DNA from: Planctomycetaceae bacterium
GTDB taxonomy: Bacteria; Planctomycetota; Planctomycetia; Planctomycetales; Planctomycetaceae
Direction of reading: 5' to 3'
NCBI GenBank assembly: GCA_021732975.1
Contig: JAKFWC010000023.1
Coordinates: 62,001 to 126,000 of the forward strand
Length of the DNA stretch: 64,000 bases
In this document: positions 3,730 to 16,399 of the stretch, one piece after another
Position numbering within the stretch: the stretch's first letter is position 1
Layout of the letters: every line of letters begins with the position of its first letter
Position numbers and translations under genes: made by a program
The notes under the pieces: model-generated
Told to the model about the DNA's origin: nothing
The model's input: the letters and a program-made list of their open reading frames with translations, nothing else
Database searches by the model: none

Positions 3730-5157
3730 ATGGCTCGTTGGTACGGTTTATCCATGTGCCTCAATCCGCAAAGACTGCGACGTTGGACATCGACGGCGAT
3801 GCTCGCCTTGGTGGGCCTGGCGGTGTTTCCGGCACTACCCACCCTCTTTGCGCAACCGCCACAGCTCGCTCGGGTGACGGAAGCGGCCCCCTTGCCCGCC
3901 GGGCCGCCGGTCGCTCACTTCAATCTGCACCTCGTGGTGACGGAAGAGTGGCTGAACCGGGTGATTGCTCGAAACGACGTGACGCCCGGCGTGGTGGATG
4001 ACTGTATCCTCGGTGCGAAAGTTGATGGTCAGCAGATCACGAATTCCCAGTTGCGACTCGACATCCGGCCATCCCCGAACCAAATCGCCGCAACATTCGT
4101 ACTGGACGGAAACGTTTGTACGGAAACGCGGGGCCAGACCGAACAGGCGACAATTTTCTCCCGCGGTCGACAACGTTTTGAGGCCCGGAAAGACATCTTC
4201 TTCGACGGGACATCGTTTTCCACCCGGCACGCTGTGGTCAGTGTTCGCGCTCAGAACGAGAATCTGGGGGCGTCGACACGGTTCGATGGCACACCACTCC
4301 AGCCGTTGGTTTCCCAGTTTGTGCTGCAGGCCGCGGAACAACGTCGGCCGGCGGCGGAGGAAATCGCCCGCAACAAAGTCGCCGACCGGATCTATCCGCG
4401 ATTTGATCAGGACATTGACGACCAGTTGGCCAGCGCGAATCAGCAACTGGAAAACGTCGTACGGAAGCGGCTGAACGACCTCGGCATGATGCCTTCTGCG
4501 CAGCGCTGTCAATCTACGGATAAGGAACTCCACTACTCCGCCCGTGTTGCTGCGGAAGCCGACCCTTTCGAGATCGTGTCGCCGTCGTCGCCGCTGCTGG
4601 GAGCGCACGGCTTCCGGCTGTATGTTCATTCGTCGTTGTTCGATGCCGCGGCATTGAAGGCGGGTCTGGCAGGTCTGAACACTTCCGACAAGCAGCTTGG
4701 TCGCATGCTGAAACGGTTCGGTTTGCCTTCCGACGGGGATGATTCAAAAACTGGGGGGGTTGAAACCGCGATTGAGTTTGACAGCCGCCGCCCGTTGACG
4801 GTCATCTTCGACAACAACGAAATGGTGATCGAAATCCGGGCCAAGCTACGACCGGCCGGGCAGTCGCTGTTGCCGCCGTTGACGTTATCGATTCCTTTCC
4901 GAATCGTCGAACAGGACGGGCAGCGGTTGTTGCGTCCGGGACAGGTGGGTGTTGCGGCACGCTCCGAGGATGGCAACCAGCCCGCAGTGTTGCCGCCCGC
5001 TGCCGAGACACTGATCAGGCAGGCGATTGCCTCCAGCCTGCAAGACATCCCGCTGCCTGCGACCATTCCGCAGTCAGCCTGGCTCCCCGACAAAACGCCG
5101 CCGAAGTTCACCAGCCTGCGTTTCCGCGATGGCTGGATGGCGATTGGGTGGGACTAG
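3730..5157 (+). CDS. Hypothetical secreted protein
   Basis: 475-aa ORF with N-terminal hydrophobic segment; start could be 3754 (MCLNPQRLRRW). Confidence 0.7.
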   Translation: MARWYGLSMCLNPQRLRRWTSTAMLALVGLAVFPALPTLFAQPPQLARVTEAAPLPAGPPVAHFNLHLVVTEEWLNRVIARNDVTPGVVDDCILGAKVDGQQITNSQLRLDIRPSPNQIAATFVLDGNVCTETRGQTEQATIFSRGRQRFEARKDIFFDGTSFSTRHAVVSVRAQNENLGASTRFDGTPLQPLVSQFVLQAAEQRRPAAEEIARNKVADRIYPRFDQDIDDQLASANQQLENVVRKRLNDLGMMPSAQRCQSTDKELHYSARVAAEADPFEIVSPSSPLLGAHGFRLYVHSSLFDAAALKAGLAGLNTSDKQLGRMLKRFGLPSDGDDSKTGGVETAIEFDSRRPLTVIFDNNEMVIEIRAKLRPAGQSLLPPLTLSIPFRIVEQDGQRLLRPGQVGVAARSEDGNQPAVLPPAAETLIRQAIASSLQDIPLPATIPQSAWLPDKTPPKFTSLRFRDGWMAIGWD

Positions 5158-5168
5158 CTTCCCGAGAG

Positions 5169-5196
5169 TTGAAATTTGCGGGGAGATTGCTAGACT
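5169..5196 (+). promoter_or_regulatory. Candidate sigma70-type promoter upstream of rpsO
   Basis: TTGAAA (5169-5174), 16-nt spacer, TAGACT (5191-5196), about 125 nt upstream of rpsO ATG. Confidence 0.35.
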
Positions 5197-5321
5197 CTGT
5201 CCTTGGACAAAACGGAAAAGGTGTACTGGCGGATGGTACGGGAGTCCGGTCGTCGCCCATCGGCGTCGGCAGAAATCTCGCAAGTCATTGTCTACCAGCC
5301 AGTTGAGGACATGGGTTAGCG

Positions 5322-5591
5322 ATGTCGATTACGAAAGAGCGCAAGACCGAGTTGATCCGCGAGTATCAGCGCGGCGAGGCCGACACCGGTTCGGCTGAAG
5401 TGCAGATTGCCGTCCTGTCGCAGCGGATCACTCAATTGACGGACCATTTGAAGGGTCATGTCAAGGATCACGCGGGACGCCGGGGGCTGCTCATGCTTGT
5501 GAGCAAGCGCCGTCGGCTGCTGGACTATCTCAAGAACAGCACGCCGCCGCGGTACTTTGCGGTGATCGAAAAGGTCGGTCTCCGAAAGTAA
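5322..5591 (+). CDS. rpsO: 30S ribosomal protein S15
   Basis: [71 protein letters not shown]. Confidence 0.98.
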
Positions 5592-5803
5592 TCGATCATA
5601 TCCCTTGTCTTGTGGGAGGCCCCGCTGCACGACCAACTGAGAGCCGAATTGCTCGACAGTGGTTCGCGTGGTGAGTGGGCCTCTTTGGTCTTTTCCGGCG
5701 GGTCCGCGATCGCGGAATCAGGAATGGCCAGTTCGGGTCGTCATCGGGACGCCCCTTGCGAAGAGGCCCGCCGAAACATCATCTCCTTCGAGGAAATTAA
5801 ACA

Positions 5804-7936
5804 GTGAAAGTGACTTTGCAACGGGAATTTGCCGGTCGGACGTTGACTCTGACCACGGGCGAAATGGCCAAGCAGGCGGCGGGTGCCGTCTCGATTCAGT
5901 TCGGTGAAACCGTCGTCTTCGTGGCCGCTCAGAACGGCCCCTCTCGCCCCGGCACCGACTTCTTCCCACTCACTTGCGACTATCGTGAGCGGGCTGCCTC
6001 GGCCGGTAAATTTCCCGGCGGCTTCATCAAGCGCGAAGGCCGTCCGACGACTCGCGAAATCCTGACCTCCCGATTGACGGACCGCCCCATCCGCCCGCTC
6101 TTCCCGGAATCGTACATCGAAGAAGTGCAGGTGATGTCGAACGTCCTGGCTTGCGATCAGGAAAACGATCCGGATGTCCTGTCGATCATCGGTGCCAGCG
6201 CCGCCCTGTGCCTTGCCCCAGTGCCGTTCCAGGGGCCGATCGGTGCCGTCCGCGTCGGTATGGTCGATGGTGAATTCAAGCTCCTGCCGACCAAGACCGA
6301 CCTCGAGAAGAGCACGCTCGATCTCATCGTTGCCGGAAACCGGGCATCGGTGTTGATGATCGAAGGCTTCGGCCAGCAGTTGCCCGAAGACGTGATGGGT
6401 GACGCGATCATGTTCGCCCATCGTGCCATCGTCGAACTCTGCGACATGCAACTGGAGTTTCTGAAGCAAGCGGGTGTGGAACGTCTCGTGCCAGCGGCAG
6501 CGACTCCAAACCCGTTCGATGCCGTGCTGCGTGACAAAGCCTACGGCAAGTTGCGCGACGCCAAGCAATCGGGTGTGAAGGCCGAACGGAGTGCCGGGAC
6601 CAAGACCGTCAAAACGGCGCTGGTCGAAGAGTTCTTCCCCGAGGGTGGCGAGCCAACCGCGATCGGCACGAAGGAACAATTCGGCGCCGCGTTCTATGCG
6701 ATGGAATCGAAGGTTATTCGCGATCTGATCCTCGAAGGCAAACGCCTCGATGGCCGCACCCCCGGCGATCTCCGTGCGGTCTCCTGCTCGGCTGGCGTCC
6801 TGCCGCTGGTTCACGGCTCGGCACTCTTCACTCGTGGCGAAACGCAATCGCTGGCGACCGTTGTTCTCGGCACCGTCCGCGATGTGCAGCATGTTGATGG
6901 GCCATTCATCGAGTACGACAAGCGGTTCATGCTCGATTACAATTTCCCATCGTATTCCGTCGGAGAATGCCGTCCGATTCGTGGCCCTGGTCGTCGCGAA
7001 ATCGGTCACGGGGCGCTGGCCGAACGGTCGGTCCAATGGGTGTTGCCGCCGGAAGAAAAGTTCCCGTACACACTGCGGGTGATCTCGGACATCATGGAAT
7101 CGAACGGCAGCAGTTCGATGGCTTCCGTGTGTAGTGCGACCCTCGCCTTGATGGACGCTGGCGTGCCGATCACGCAACCGGTTGCGGGCATTTCGATCGG
7201 TCTCGTCAAAGACGGCGACCGGTTCACCCTGCTCACCGATATCATGGGCGACGAAGACCACTTCGGCGACATGGATTTCAAGGTCGCCGGCACGCAAAAA
7301 GGTGTCACCGGGATTCAGCTCGACCTGAAGATCGACGGCATCAACGAAGAGATCATCCGCAAGACGCTCGAACAGGCCCGCGGAGCCCGTATCGAGCTGC
7401 TGAAGACGATGCTCACCGCGATTCGTCGGCCGCGTTCCGACATCGCCGCTTCCGCCCCGCGGTTGCTCCGGACGAAGATCGATCCGTCGAAGATCGGTCT
7501 CCTGATCGGTCCCGGCGGCAAAAACATCCGGGCGATCCAGGAAGACACCGGTACCACGATCGATATTCAGGACGACGGCACGGTCGTCATCGCCTGTCCG
7601 AACGCCGCCGGGGCACAGGACGCGTTGGCCCGTGTCGAAGCGATTGCCGAAGAAATCAAGGTCGGCCGGATCTACAACGGGACCGTCAACTCGATCAAGG
7701 ATTTCGGCGTGTTCGTCGAAATCGCGCCGGGCAAAGACGGTCTGTGCCACATCAGCGAACTTGCGGAAGGCTTCGTCAAGCAGATTGAAGAAGTCTGCAA
7801 GCTGGGCGACAAGATTCCGGTGAAGGTGATTGCGGTCGACGATCAGAACCGCGTCAAGCTGTCGCGCCGTGCGGCCTTGGCCGATCTGGCCGCCGCGAAT
7901 AACCCGCCGCCCGCCGAGGAAGCTCCGGCGAACTAA
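5804..7936 (+). CDS. pnp: Polyribonucleotide nucleotidyltransferase (PNPase) with KH and S1 domains
   Basis: [21 protein letters not shown]...[28 protein letters not shown]...[16 protein letters not shown]...[20 protein letters not shown]; adjacent to rpsO. Confidence 0.98.
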
Positions 7937-7942
7937 TTCGTA

Positions 7943-11342: not shown

Positions 11343-12119
11343 ATGCAACGCGATCCCTTGCAGTCCCTGCTCGAACGCTGGCGTGATGGCGCGATGACCG
11401 TGGCGCAGCTGGAAGAATCGTTGCGGGACCGCTATGCGGCGACGGCGATGGTCGAAGACGCGCTCGTCGATCTGGATCGTGTCCATCGCTGCGGCTTTCC
11501 GGAAGTCGTGTATGGAAGTGGCAAATCGCCCGAACAGGTGTTGCAGATTTTCATTGCGCAGGAACAGGTCGGGCAGGCATCGTTAGTCACGCGCGCCACG
11601 GCCGAGCAAGCGAACCTCGTTGCCGCGCGATTTCCGGATGCCGAGTACAATCCGGTGGCGCGAACCATCCGTCGCGGCACGGCTCATGCGGCGGGAACAT
11701 CGGGCCGCATAGCCGTCATCACCGCGGGGGCGACAGACCGACCGGTGGCGGAAGAAGCCGTGGAGACCGCAAGGTGGATGGGATGCGATGTGCGACTCAT
11801 CACCGATGTCGGCGTCGCGGGACCGCAGCGGTTGCTCGAACGGCGGCGCGATTTCTGTGACATGGACGCCGTGGTTGTCGTGGCAGGAATGGAAGGGGCG
11901 CTCCCTTCGGTCGTGGGTGGTTGGGTCGATTGCCCGGTGATCGGTGTCCCCACGAGTGTCGGTTACGGTGCCCAATTGCAGGGACTCGCGCCGCTGCTCA
12001 GCATGCTCAGCAGTTGCGCGGCGAATGTCTGCGTGGTGAATATCGACGCGGGTTTCAAGGGTGGATATTTCGCCGGACTGATCGCGCGGCGCCGCGCCGT
12101 CTTAGCCCCCGGTCAATGA
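11343..12119 (+). CDS. larB: LarB-type nickel pincer cofactor biosynthesis protein (PurE-like carboxylase domain)
   Basis: HRCGFPEVVYGSGKSPEQVLQIF ... IAVITAGATDRPVAEEAVETARWMGCDVRLITDVGVAGPQRLL ... GMEGALPSVVGGWVDCPVIGVPTSVGYGA. Confidence 0.92.
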   Translation: MQRDPLQSLLERWRDGAMTVAQLEESLRDRYAATAMVEDALVDLDRVHRCGFPEVVYGSGKSPEQVLQIFIAQEQVGQASLVTRATAEQANLVAARFPDAEYNPVARTIRRGTAHAAGTSGRIAVITAGATDRPVAEEAVETARWMGCDVRLITDVGVAGPQRLLERRRDFCDMDAVVVVAGMEGALPSVVGGWVDCPVIGVPTSVGYGAQLQGLAPLLSMLSSCAANVCVVNIDAGFKGGYFAGLIARRRAVLAPGQ

Positions 12120-12187: not shown

Positions 12188-13069
12188 ATGTCGTTTGATC
12201 TCACGCCGCGACTTATTACCGCATTGTCCGATTTACCGCTGCGGCCGGCGGACGCTCACAAGGGAACCTTCGGCCGCGTGGTGATCATCGCCGGCAGTCG
12301 GGGCATGACCGGAGCCGCGGCGTTATCGGGAATGGCTGCGCTCCGCGGTGGGGCCGGGCTCGTGACCGTTGCCACTCCCGCTACGGTGGCACCCATTGTT
12401 GCCGGGTACGAACCGTCCTACATGACCTGGCCGGTTTGCGATGTCTGCGGCCAACTGTCGATGGCATCGCTGTCCGAACTGATGGATCGACTGGCGACCG
12501 CCGACGCTGCGGCCATTGGACCGGGGATCGGACAATCGAAAGACATCGACGAGTTGGTCGCCGAACTCTACCGCATGGTGGAGATCCCGCTTGTGATTGA
12601 TGCCGATGGTTTGAATGCGCTGTCGCATCGCAGCGATGCGTTCGGGACGATCCGGCCTGCAGCGGCACGGGTGTTGACACCGCATCCGGGCGAGTTCGCA
12701 CGGTTATCCGGGCTGTCGATGGAAACGATCGCAGGCAATCGGGAAGCCGTCGCCGCGGCATTTGCAGCTCAACAGGGCGTCGTCGTGGTGTTGAAAGGCC
12801 AGCACACGGTCATCACCGATGGTGAACAACTCGCGATCAATCCCACGGGCAACAGCGGTATGGCCACGGGCGGCAGCGGCGATGTCTTGACCGGCATTCT
12901 CACGGCTCTGCTGGCCCGCCGCATGGACCCGTTTGCGGCGGCGCAACTCGCGACCTATCTGCACGGTCTGGCGGGGGATCTCGCCGCCGCGGACCTGTCA
13001 CAACCGGGCCTGATCGCCTCTGATCTGCCGCGCTACATCGCGCAAGCATGGAAGCGGTTAGGACAGTGA
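12188..13069 (+). CDS. nnrD: ADP/ATP-dependent NAD(P)H-hydrate dehydratase
   Basis: DAHKGTFGRVVIIAGSRGMTGAAALSGMAALRGGAGLVTVATP ... VLTPHPGEFARLSG ... NPTGNSGMATGGSGDVLTGILTALLA. Confidence 0.92.
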   Translation: MSFDLTPRLITALSDLPLRPADAHKGTFGRVVIIAGSRGMTGAAALSGMAALRGGAGLVTVATPATVAPIVAGYEPSYMTWPVCDVCGQLSMASLSELMDRLATADAAAIGPGIGQSKDIDELVAELYRMVEIPLVIDADGLNALSHRSDAFGTIRPAAARVLTPHPGEFARLSGLSMETIAGNREAVAAAFAAQQGVVVVLKGQHTVITDGEQLAINPTGNSGMATGGSGDVLTGILTALLARRMDPFAAAQLATYLHGLAGDLAAADLSQPGLIASDLPRYIAQAWKRLGQ

Positions 13070-13156: not shown

Positions 13157-16100
13157 TTATTCGGGTGGTGTTGTTATCGGCACGGGGGGAGTCCAGGGCG
13201 TCAATTGTGGTGAGGCAGCCCCGTGCCCCATCCACCACTGTTGCCGTCCGACGGCTTTCGGATCGATGAGTACCAGCGGACGCCGCGATAACATCGGTGT
13301 GATGCGGTCCCAGTACAGAATCGTGCTTGCCGTCTGCGGTGCGGCATCGAATGCTGCCAGCAAGGCTTTCAATCGCTGTGCCGAGGCGATCGCCCGTTGT
13401 TGATGCTCTGTCGCTGTAGCGGCCGCGGCTTCCAACTGAGCGGCGGCGGTCCCCGATAAGCGGGACGGTTTTTCGTTCAGCCACGATTGCCATAATTCAT
13501 CGGTCATCTCGATGGGCTCAGCGGTGGCAGCTTCCGGTGACAGTTCGTCTCCCATCGCGGAGATGAGTGTTCGCGCCGCCGTAGCGGAAGCGATGTTCTT
13601 CTGTCGTTCCTGATCTTCCAGCGCATCCGACACCTGGCGGTAGGCCGCGACGACGGGTTGCGGCGGATGGACATCCAGCAATTGCACATCGACGATTTCG
13701 ATCCCGAGACTCAAAGCGGTGATTCGCTCGGTCACAGCCCGCTGCACGCGTTGTTCGAGCGCCGCGCGGTCGTCGGTGAGCCAATCGTCCAGTGGATGCC
13801 GCGCGGTCAGTTCGCGGAGGACGGCTTCCAGTTCCATCCGACAGAGTCCGTTGATCTGACTACCACCGCGATAGATGTAGTCGGTCAAGCTGATCGTGCG
13901 GTACTGGAGTTCCGCCGAGATGTCGACGAGAACCTCATCCGCGGTGAGAAACAAGGAGTTCGAGGGCGCATCATTGGCGTCGGGCGCGGCATGCTCGCTG
14001 GTCCACTCAATGACGGACGGATCAGTTTTCGTCGCGGAATCCTTCGCCGACACTCCCAAGGTGACCGTGTGGACAAAGTCCGGTCGGACGCGCGTCACGC
14101 TTTCCAGCGGCCACGGCCATCGCCAGTGCCAGCCTGCGGAAAGCACAGTGTGATGCTTGCCAAGGCGTGTCACCACCGCTTGTTCATCCACGCTGAGCCG
14201 CACGAATTGCGACAGCAACCAGGTGATGGCAATGGCCGCCACAGCTAATCGACTCCCCATGCGGCGATGCTCGAGGATCCAATACACCCACGCGGAGGGT
14301 GACCACCACGCCAGCCATGCATCCCAATTGATGGTCGCCACCGCTTTCAGATCAGCTTGTGTCGCAGTTGACGGATCATTGTCCCAGAGTAATCGCAGGG
14401 CATTGATCATCACCGCGATGGAAGCGACCTCATGAAACAGCGCCGCGGTGACGGGGCTCAACCACCCGAACGAGCTGGCCATCACGCCGAAACCGTTCAC
14501 ACCGAAAGCAAACCAGAACACGCTTTGACGGATGTTTTGTACCATCGCGCGGGAACGGCGAATCAGTCCGGGAAGCGGTCGCAACGGGTCGCCGAGCAAC
14601 AGTACATCACCGGCTTCTGCAGCGAGATCCGCGCCGGGACGAACGACGACGAGACCGACATCGGCCACGGCAAGGGCCGGCGCGTCGTTGATGCCGTCAC
14701 CCATCATCGCGACGCGATGTCCGGCCGCGTGCTGCGTTTTGATCCACTCCGCTTTATCGATGGGCGATTGTTCGCTGGCCACGTATTCAAATGGCGGGAG
14801 TTCCTTGAGCAACGCCGCTGCCGGGGCCGCACGATCACCGGTGAGCAATGCCCAGCGCGAAACATCCTGTTCCCGCAGGGCATCGAGCACAGTCCGCGAT
14901 TCTTGTCGAACGGTGTCACGCACGCCGATGACGCCGAGGCAACGTCCATCGAGCGCCACGAACAACGTTGTCTGTCCGGACTGGCTCGCTTCACTGGCAA
15001 GCTGCTGCGTCGCCGCGGATGGGGTCACGCCCTGCTGCACCAGCAGATCCCGCGTTCCCACGACGAGCGTTACCATCCGCGGCGGTTCAACGATCTCGGG
15101 TGTGATCTTCGCCAACGCTGAAGAACGAATGGTCGCGATAATTCCCGCGCCCGGTTGCGTCGTGAACTCATACGGCGCGGGGAACTCCAATCCGGCAGAC
15201 TCCGCGGCATTCACCAGCACACGGGCCAACAGATGTTCGCTGCGACGCTCGGCGGTGGCGGCGACGGCCAGCAGTGCGTCGTGACTGACACCCGCTTCGG
15301 GATGCAACCCCGCGATGGTTATTGCCCCTTGCGTCAACGTGCCGGTTTTATCGAAGGCGATCGTATCGACGCTGGCAAGGCGCTCGAGGACAGTCGAACC
15401 CTTCACGACGATACCGCGTCGGGCCAATCCCGCCATCGTTGCCAATACGGCACACGGCGTAGCCAATACCAGCGGACACGGACACGCCACGACCAGCACC
15501 GCCAGCGCCGGCAACCAAGCGGCAGACCACGTTCCCGTCGAAAGCCGCCAGCCGATGAGTGTCAACGCAGCGGCGACCAGAACGGCAGGGAGAAACGCTT
15601 GCGCAAGTTGATCCGCGAGCCGTTCTCCCCGCGACTTCTTCGCCACGGCCTGTTGCACGAGCGTGCTGATTTTTGCAATCGTCGTGTCGCTGCCGGCTCG
15701 TTCGACACGGACCTGCAATCCACCGAACTGATTCACAGTCCCGGCAACAACGGGGCTGCCGATGGATTTGTCGACGGGGGCTGCTTCTCCGGTGAGTGTG
15801 CTTTCATCAACGGTCGATTTCCCCGCCACGACCACACCGTCGATTGGGAGGCTTTCCCCGGGACGGATGGCAACGACATCGTTCGGCCGTAGTTCCGTAA
15901 TGCTCACATCGCGCTCACCGTTCGATTCGCAGAGGTGCGCCGTTACCGGTTGCAACGCAAAGCTGGAACGCAATGCCCGGCGGGCACAATCCAGCGTGTA
16001 GCCTTCGAGGCTCTCTCCGATGAGCGCGATCAGAACCACCAACCCCGCGGTCTGATGCTCGCCTAAAACAATCGCGCCGAGACACGCAATTGTCAGGGCG

Positions 16101-16399
16101 AGATCGGCTCCGAATCGCCCCGAGAAGATGCCGTCCAGGGTGTGATAGAGAATCCGCGCACCGCCGAGCAGAGCGGCCCAGAGTGCCAGACGATATCCCA
16201 GGAGCGATTGCCACGTCGCCGCGGTGGGGAACCATCCGCTGCCGAGAATCACATCGGCGATCAACAACGCCGCGACCGCCGCCGTCAGGACATACAGCGG
16301 AGCGGTGCGGTGATGAAATTCGCGTTGCGCCGCCGCGCGCCCTGCGCCCAGAGGATCATCGCGCAACAGCTCGCAGGCCGATTCGGGAACGTAGTGCAT
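13157..16399 (-). CDS. Fusion protein: P1B-type metal-transporting ATPase + C-terminal HflK-like SPFH/band-7 domain
   Basis: TGEAAPVDKS, ACPCPLVLATP, DKTGTLTQG, MMGDGINDAPALAVADVGLV (P-type ATPase), then AVAAIAITWLLSQFVRLSVDEQAVVTRLGKHHTVLSAGWHWRWPWPLESVTRVRP (HflK/SPFH) in one uninterrupted ORF. Confidence 0.9.
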   Translation of the reverse strand: MHYVPESACELLRDDPLGAGRAAAQREFHHRTAPLYVLTAAVAALLIADVILGSGWFPTAATWQSLLGYRLALWAALLGGARILYHTLDGIFSGRFGADLALTIACLGAIVLGEHQTAGLVVLIALIGESLEGYTLDCARRALRSSFALQPVTAHLCESNGERDVSITELRPNDVVAIRPGESLPIDGVVVAGKSTVDESTLTGEAAPVDKSIGSPVVAGTVNQFGGLQVRVERAGSDTTIAKISTLVQQAVAKKSRGERLADQLAQAFLPAVLVAAALTLIGWRLSTGTWSAAWLPALAVLVVACPCPLVLATPCAVLATMAGLARRGIVVKGSTVLERLASVDTIAFDKTGTLTQGAITIAGLHPEAGVSHDALLAVAATAERRSEHLLARVLVNAAESAGLEFPAPYEFTTQPGAGIIATIRSSALAKITPEIVEPPRMVTLVVGTRDLLVQQGVTPSAATQQLASEASQSGQTTLFVALDGRCLGVIGVRDTVRQESRTVLDALREQDVSRWALLTGDRAAPAAALLKELPPFEYVASEQSPIDKAEWIKTQHAAGHRVAMMGDGINDAPALAVADVGLVVVRPGADLAAEAGDVLLLGDPLRPLPGLIRRSRAMVQNIRQSVFWFAFGVNGFGVMASSFGWLSPVTAALFHEVASIAVMINALRLLWDNDPSTATQADLKAVATINWDAWLAWWSPSAWVYWILEHRRMGSRLAVAAIAITWLLSQFVRLSVDEQAVVTRLGKHHTVLSAGWHWRWPWPLESVTRVRPDFVHTVTLGVSAKDSATKTDPSVIEWTSEHAAPDANDAPSNSLFLTADEVLVDISAELQYRTISLTDYIYRGGSQINGLCRMELEAVLRELTARHPLDDWLTDDRAALEQRVQRAVTERITALSLGIEIVDVQLLDVHPPQPVVAAYRQVSDALEDQERQKNIASATAARTLISAMGDELSPEAATAEPIEMTDELWQSWLNEKPSRLSGTAAAQLEAAAATATEHQQRAIASAQRLKALLAAFDAAPQTASTILYWDRITPMLSRRPLVLIDPKAVGRQQWWMGHGAASPQLTPWTPPVPITTPPE

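Follow-up and report, generated by a model that had tools for sequence, protein, structure and literature searches.

A P1B-type metal ATPase fused to an HflK-like SPFH protein in a conserved open reading frame of Planctomycetota

SPFH proteins are present in all domains of life, and to our knowledge the contents of the rings they form have rarely been identified. In E. coli, HflK and HflC build a cage or an open nautilus around FtsH (PMC12048511). In mycobacteria, the P1B-type ATPase CtpC is clustered in the membrane by a gene-linked scaffold, PacL, a small DUF1490 protein that is separate from the pump, and the PacL-CtpC foci need no flotillin (PMC9374683, PMC13043812). In the aquaporin 1-stomatin structure 9zd2, a membrane transporter is physically bound to an SPFH assembly.

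We analyzed a 64,000-nucleotide stretch of a Planctomycetaceae contig (the window), in which one ORF unites a metal pump and an SPFH protein. It starts with ATG and runs for 1080 codons in a single frame with no internal stops. Its features are as follows.

13157..16399, minus strand: whole fusion ORF, 1080 aa, P1B-type ATPase, ninth transmembrane helix (TM9) and HflK-like SPFH protein (sequence, Pfam, NCBIfam)
15416..15955, minus strand: E1-E2 ATPase (actuator) domain, residues 149-328, with TGEA (203-206) and the CPC-bearing helix (Pfam PF00122, E 7.7e-49)
15476..15484, minus strand: CPC metal-site motif (C306-C308), aligned with ZntA C392/C394 (sequence)
15338..15352, minus strand: DKTGT phosphorylation motif (350-354), kept in nearly all fused relatives (sequence)
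14660..15370, minus strand: P/N (HAD hydrolase) domain, residues 344-580, with GDGINDAP (567-574) (Pfam PF00702, E 7.5e-25)
14420..14434, minus strand: HEVAS motif of the last ATPase helix (656-660), with H for the P1B-2 Asp and HE invariant in a 9-row alignment (alignments)
14246..14374, minus strand: linker (676-718) with short predicted helices, an SP(S/T) motif and a basic stretch before TM9 (alignments, predicted helices)
14189..14245, minus strand: TM9 (719-737), equivalent of the HflK N-terminal anchor (hydropathy; aligned with the E. coli HflK TM)
13586..14191, minus strand: SPFH/Band_7 domain, residues 737-938 (Pfam PF01145, E 2.3e-18; fold match HflK 7vhq_E, probability 1.00)
13160..13585, minus strand: coiled coil and HflK-like C-terminal region (939-1080) (alignments, predicted secondary structure)

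The original prediction of one 1080-residue frame with a P1B motif set followed by an additional TM segment was borne out, and Pfam places E1-E2_ATPase, Hydrolase and Band_7 in the expected order along the chain. DKTGT, TGE, GDGxND and a CPx motif, which together mark P1B membership, all lie in this one chain. The first 670 residues match heavy-metal P-type ATPases in NCBIfam, with 504 bits for TIGR01525 (P1B) against a cut-off of 346. Residues 738-951 match HflK (TIGR01933) at 123 bits, below the equivalog cut-off of 159, which is passed by the fusion of one genome of another class (G162, 160.9 bits). The prediction had named only the start of an HflK/band-7 domain; the HflK part is in fact complete, as the alignment to E. 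coli HflK continues through the TM, SPFH1/2, the coiled coil and the C-terminal strand. About 35 residues of the C-terminal region (DELW...LSG) are additional, with no counterpart in E. coli HflK. An AlphaFold model of the whole fusion, built from 9 sequences, was poor (pLDDT 52) and served for secondary structure only, while the SPFH part alone reached a moderate 67, with HflK (7vhq_E) as its best fold match.

The fusion resembles the E. coli system in having a full HflK-type layout, with one anchor TM directly before SPFH1/2, coiled coil and C-terminal strand, and in the presence of hflC and hflK partners and of FtsH. It differs in that a whole P1B ATPase stands ahead of the anchor TM, in belonging to a third SPFH lineage, and in the extra segments that the window fusion has in SPFH1 and the coiled coil. 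The nearest functional parallel is the mycobacterial PacL-CtpC efflux platform, where, as is proposed for the fusion, a dedicated and gene-linked scaffold clusters a P1B ATPase in the membrane. Unlike PacL, the candidate scaffold in the fusion is the SPFH part, covalently joined to the pump and unrelated to PacL. Aquaporin 1 and stomatin, in contrast to the fusion, associate in trans, are eukaryotic and involve no ATPase.

Searched with the SPFH end of the fusion, 72 of the 171 host-family genomes gave a strong match, and the frame could almost always accommodate both parts. When the fusion alignment served as query, matches spanning both parts were found in at least 25 of 45 genomes of the order of G386, in the same class, all 45 belonging to one second family; several of these hold the fusion twice. 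The fusion also occurs in G162. Of 399 genomes sampled across the phylum, with only two candidates per genome scored, only five reached the strict threshold. A non-exhaustive scan of 85,488 species with six peptides returned full-length matches restricted to Planctomycetota. As to the novelty raised in the original prediction, many proteins share the architecture and none was found with a known function. Literature searches found no publication on a P1B ATPase-HflK SPFH fusion, and ATPases go unmentioned in a survey of the SPFH proteins of prokaryotes. The fusion is a genuine, conserved architecture, undescribed as far as literature searches show.

HflC was found in 68 of the 72 fusion genomes and in 30 of 99 other genomes of the host family (Fisher p 7e-19, relatedness ignored). 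Of the 68 genomes with both genes, 47 have them no more than 6 kb apart, usually with hflK as well, and in 21 they are not adjacent, some of these being contig breaks. At the loci read, hflC generally follows the fusion and hflK follows hflC, the genes being either separated by 34-150 bases or overlapping by 4-11 bases; at one locus (L145) the hflC/hflK pair precedes the fusion. In the second family, the trio fusion-hflC-hflK was present in 8/8 loci read. Where a fusion genome had one detected HflC, that HflC adjoined the fusion in 37 of 55 cases, which makes a tie between the fusion and the general HflK/C complex probable.

The window's own genus departs from this arrangement. In two nearly complete genomes of the genus the hflC-hflK pair is unlinked, on another contig, and its products are nonetheless orthologues of the fusion-linked HflC and HflK. 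The partners suggested in the original prediction were recovered in part in the window's genome: two full-size FtsH genes are present, but HflC and HflK were not found in this 65%-complete genome. When synteny was compared, the flanks of the same-genus hflC-hflK pair mapped to two distant places in the window's genome.

In a tree of 54 sequences, all first subunits of these trios, whether fused to P1B, to ArsP or to a TM domain, grouped in one lineage (support 83, not starred), a third one next to HflC and HflK. It lay on the HflK side, split from HflC with a support of 100; a larger quick tree set the TM-domain SPFH group slightly apart from the others. A single origin of all first-subunit SPFH proteins is likely on the basis of these trees.

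Other membrane modules occupy the same position. In one family (f35), an ArsP_1 permease is fused to the SPFH protein, preceded by a ZIP transporter and followed by HflC and HflK. ArsP_1 permease-HflK-like SPFH fusions followed by HflC and HflK were seen at L191 (4266-6467), L192 (7037-9196) and L193 (6500-8662), with the ZIP transporter in front in L191 and L192; the fusion call is based on Pfam runs on L191/L109 and L192. In a further family (f2) and several host-family genomes, an operon encodes an ArsP_1 permease, a TM-domain SPFH protein, HflC, HflK and a P1B ATPase (for example L152 2172-9611, L156 5719-13234 and L201 4219-11644). The N-terminal TM domain of that first subunit, of about 270 aa, gave neither a Pfam match nor a convincing PDB relative. 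CPG replaces CPC in the operon-linked ATPases of L152-L154 and L156, and downstream of an SPFH trio at L155 there is a 931-aa ORF (5145-7940) without a Pfam match. Since ArsP and P1B proteins are both found fused or operon-linked to SPFH trios, metal transporters have been joined or linked to these trios repeatedly in Planctomycetota.

Fused and operon-linked P1B ATPases are two separate lineages (SH-aLRT 90 for the fused one). We weighed whether the operon-linked ATPase could be the unfused ancestor of the window ATPase and rejected this, given its separate lineage and the CPG in place of CPC in the members from f2 and one other genome (G050).

That metal transport is coupled to an SPFH scaffold, as put forward in the original prediction, is well supported as a genomic association, by the conserved fusion, the adjacent hflC and hflK, and the other transporters independently fused or operon-linked. 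Roughly a hundred related genomes share the design, usually with two more scaffold genes next to it, and this suggests that metal pumps are built straight into scaffold rings in these bacteria. We read the ORF as a third, HflK-derived SPFH subunit that has a complete P1B metal-export ATPase as its N-terminus and that would co-assemble with HflC and HflK into a periplasmic SPFH cage anchoring the pump, with control by FtsH possible. We give this reading a probability of roughly 0.6, and gene linkage and co-occurrence are what argue for co-assembly. Eight ATPase helices would leave the chain in the cytosol, and TM9, after its basic stretch, would then take it outward, so that the SPFH part would be periplasmic as in E. 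coli HflK. That part would join HflC and HflK in a hetero-oligomeric cage, each fusion subunit would plant one metal pump in the membrane patch of the cage, and the SPFH part would set the position of the pump, the cluster size and the access of FtsH. Counted against the cage are the absence of hflC and hflK beside the fusion in the window's genus and in 21 of the 68 genomes with both genes, the lack of an HflC or HflK match in the window's 65%-complete genome, the poor whole-protein and moderate SPFH models, and a changed DKTGT motif in one relative; moreover, twelve or more bulky ATPases may not fit in one ring.

The SPFH part might instead be a protease adaptor that docks the pump onto FtsH and sets its level by regulated degradation, with clustering in microdomains incidental. 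In its favor, HflK/C binds and regulates FtsH (PMC12048511), the fused SPFH proteins side with HflK against HflC in the tree, the window's genome has two full-size FtsH genes, and FtsH was present in 25 of 26 genomes searched. It is still unlikely, as the fusion loci examined showed no FtsH gene and the parallel fusions carry metal permeases, which argues for the organization of transport.

The identity of the pump bears on a second alternative. An HMA metal-binding domain, common but not universal among P1B-type ATPases, gave no Pfam match at the N-terminus of the window fusion. The P1B-4 (CoaT-like) subgroup has SPC in TM6 and an HEGGT-type TM8, and 7qbz aligns with SPC and HEGST at these positions; the window ATPase has CPC in TM6 and shares only HE in TM8. 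The copper subgroup P1B-1 is marked by YN(X)4P in TM7 and MXXSS in TM8, and the zinc/cadmium subgroup P1B-2 by QN(X)7K in TM7 and DXG(X)7N in TM8 (PMC4932525). In place of the former, the window ATPase has GVNGFG and HEVAS, and TIGR01511 scored 368 against a cut-off of 397; of the latter, ZntA K693 is replaced by N and D714 by H, despite a TIGR01512 score over its cut-off. TM8 of the fusions reads HExxS, with HQxxS in its place in G162 and the second family. Among solved structures, the nearest chains are those of CopA, a cadmium-translocating (CoaT-type) ATPase and ZntA. Like ZntA, CopA and CoaT, the fusion has all catalytic motifs, the CPC site and a TIGR01525 score over cut-off; unlike them, it has no detected HMA domain, N for the P1B-2 lysine, HExxS for DxG or MxxSS, and a C-terminal SPFH protein. 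Judged by its helix signatures, the window ATPase fits no characterized P1B subgroup and so points to no particular metal. The fused pump is probably specialized rather than a general detoxification pump, because the window's genome encodes several ordinary P1B ATPases besides it.

These properties would also suit a pump that loads metal into a periplasmic metalloenzyme, in the way that CcoI, another P1B pump, acts in oxidase assembly (PMC7558416), or a metal sensor signaling to the SPFH complex, rather than a detoxification exporter. The missing HMA match, the unmatched helix motifs and the ordinary P1B ATPases already in the genome all favor such a role, yet no metalloenzyme gene consistently adjoins the fusion at the three loci scanned, and the complete catalytic motif set suggests turnover, which speaks against a pure sensor. 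We regard this alternative as improbable, somewhat more so than the adaptor. An extension of the cage reading seems doubtful to the same degree: in it, Planctomycetota would have dedicated metal-transport SPFH cages whose third subunit always carries a membrane module (P1B, ArsP or related) inside the periplasmic dome, and metal would be pumped into an enclosed compartment instead of the open periplasm.

A passive gene fusion, in which pump and scaffold are merely co-expressed and co-localized and the SPFH part adds nothing specific to transport, is less probable again. Uncoupled gene fusions can persist, and one fused ATPase (L135, 7062-10466) has FDTTGT for FDKTGT, possibly an inactive enzyme or a sequencing error; the altered lysine implies that the halves need not share equal constraint. 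Against this, the fusion is conserved through two families and another class, nearly all members keep the catalytic motifs, and SPFH trios are independently associated with ArsP, ZIP and another P1B lineage.

Over residues 1-1079, the fusion shares 80% identity with a same-genus homologue. Nucleotide differences from it at codon positions 1, 2 and 3 numbered 88, 49 and 333 in the ATPase part, 22, 9 and 42 in the linker and TM9, 36, 23 and 100 in the SPFH domain, and 31, 25 and 74 in the C-terminal part. Differences are rich in third positions in all four segments, and the junction is therefore translated and under selection. A merger of two neighboring genes by assembly or sequencing error, which the original prediction had raised against itself and for which the incomplete 24-contig assembly of the host genome might speak, is already refuted and has next to no probability, as dozens of independent assemblies contain the fusion, among them the single-contig genome G382, and both the identity and the coding-type substitutions continue through the junction.

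A transporter covalently tied to a ring subunit, in more than one transporter family, would offer a testable SPFH assembly with defined cargo, and in the natural fusion the transporter-scaffold contact is already fixed for structural studies. The fusion further points to an organization of metal efflux in Planctomycetota that parallels the mycobacterial effluxosome with unrelated scaffolds.

Outside the trio, the gene neighbors at three loci scanned had no metal-related function in common. In the window, genes for an AIR-carboxylase-family protein (LarB-like by eye; 11343-12119, plus strand) and an NAD(P)H-hydrate dehydratase (12188-13069, plus strand) converge on the fusion, and counterparts were not seen beside the fusion of a same-genus relative (L003). 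Apart from the fusion, a single Band_7 protein turned up in the host genome (L002, 817-3117); it has 766 aa, with a long N-terminal region ahead of its SPFH domain. A dispersed repeat of about 70 bases occurs on many contigs of the host genome, on both strands at the same places in palindrome-like fashion, and matches L194 at 6163-6235.
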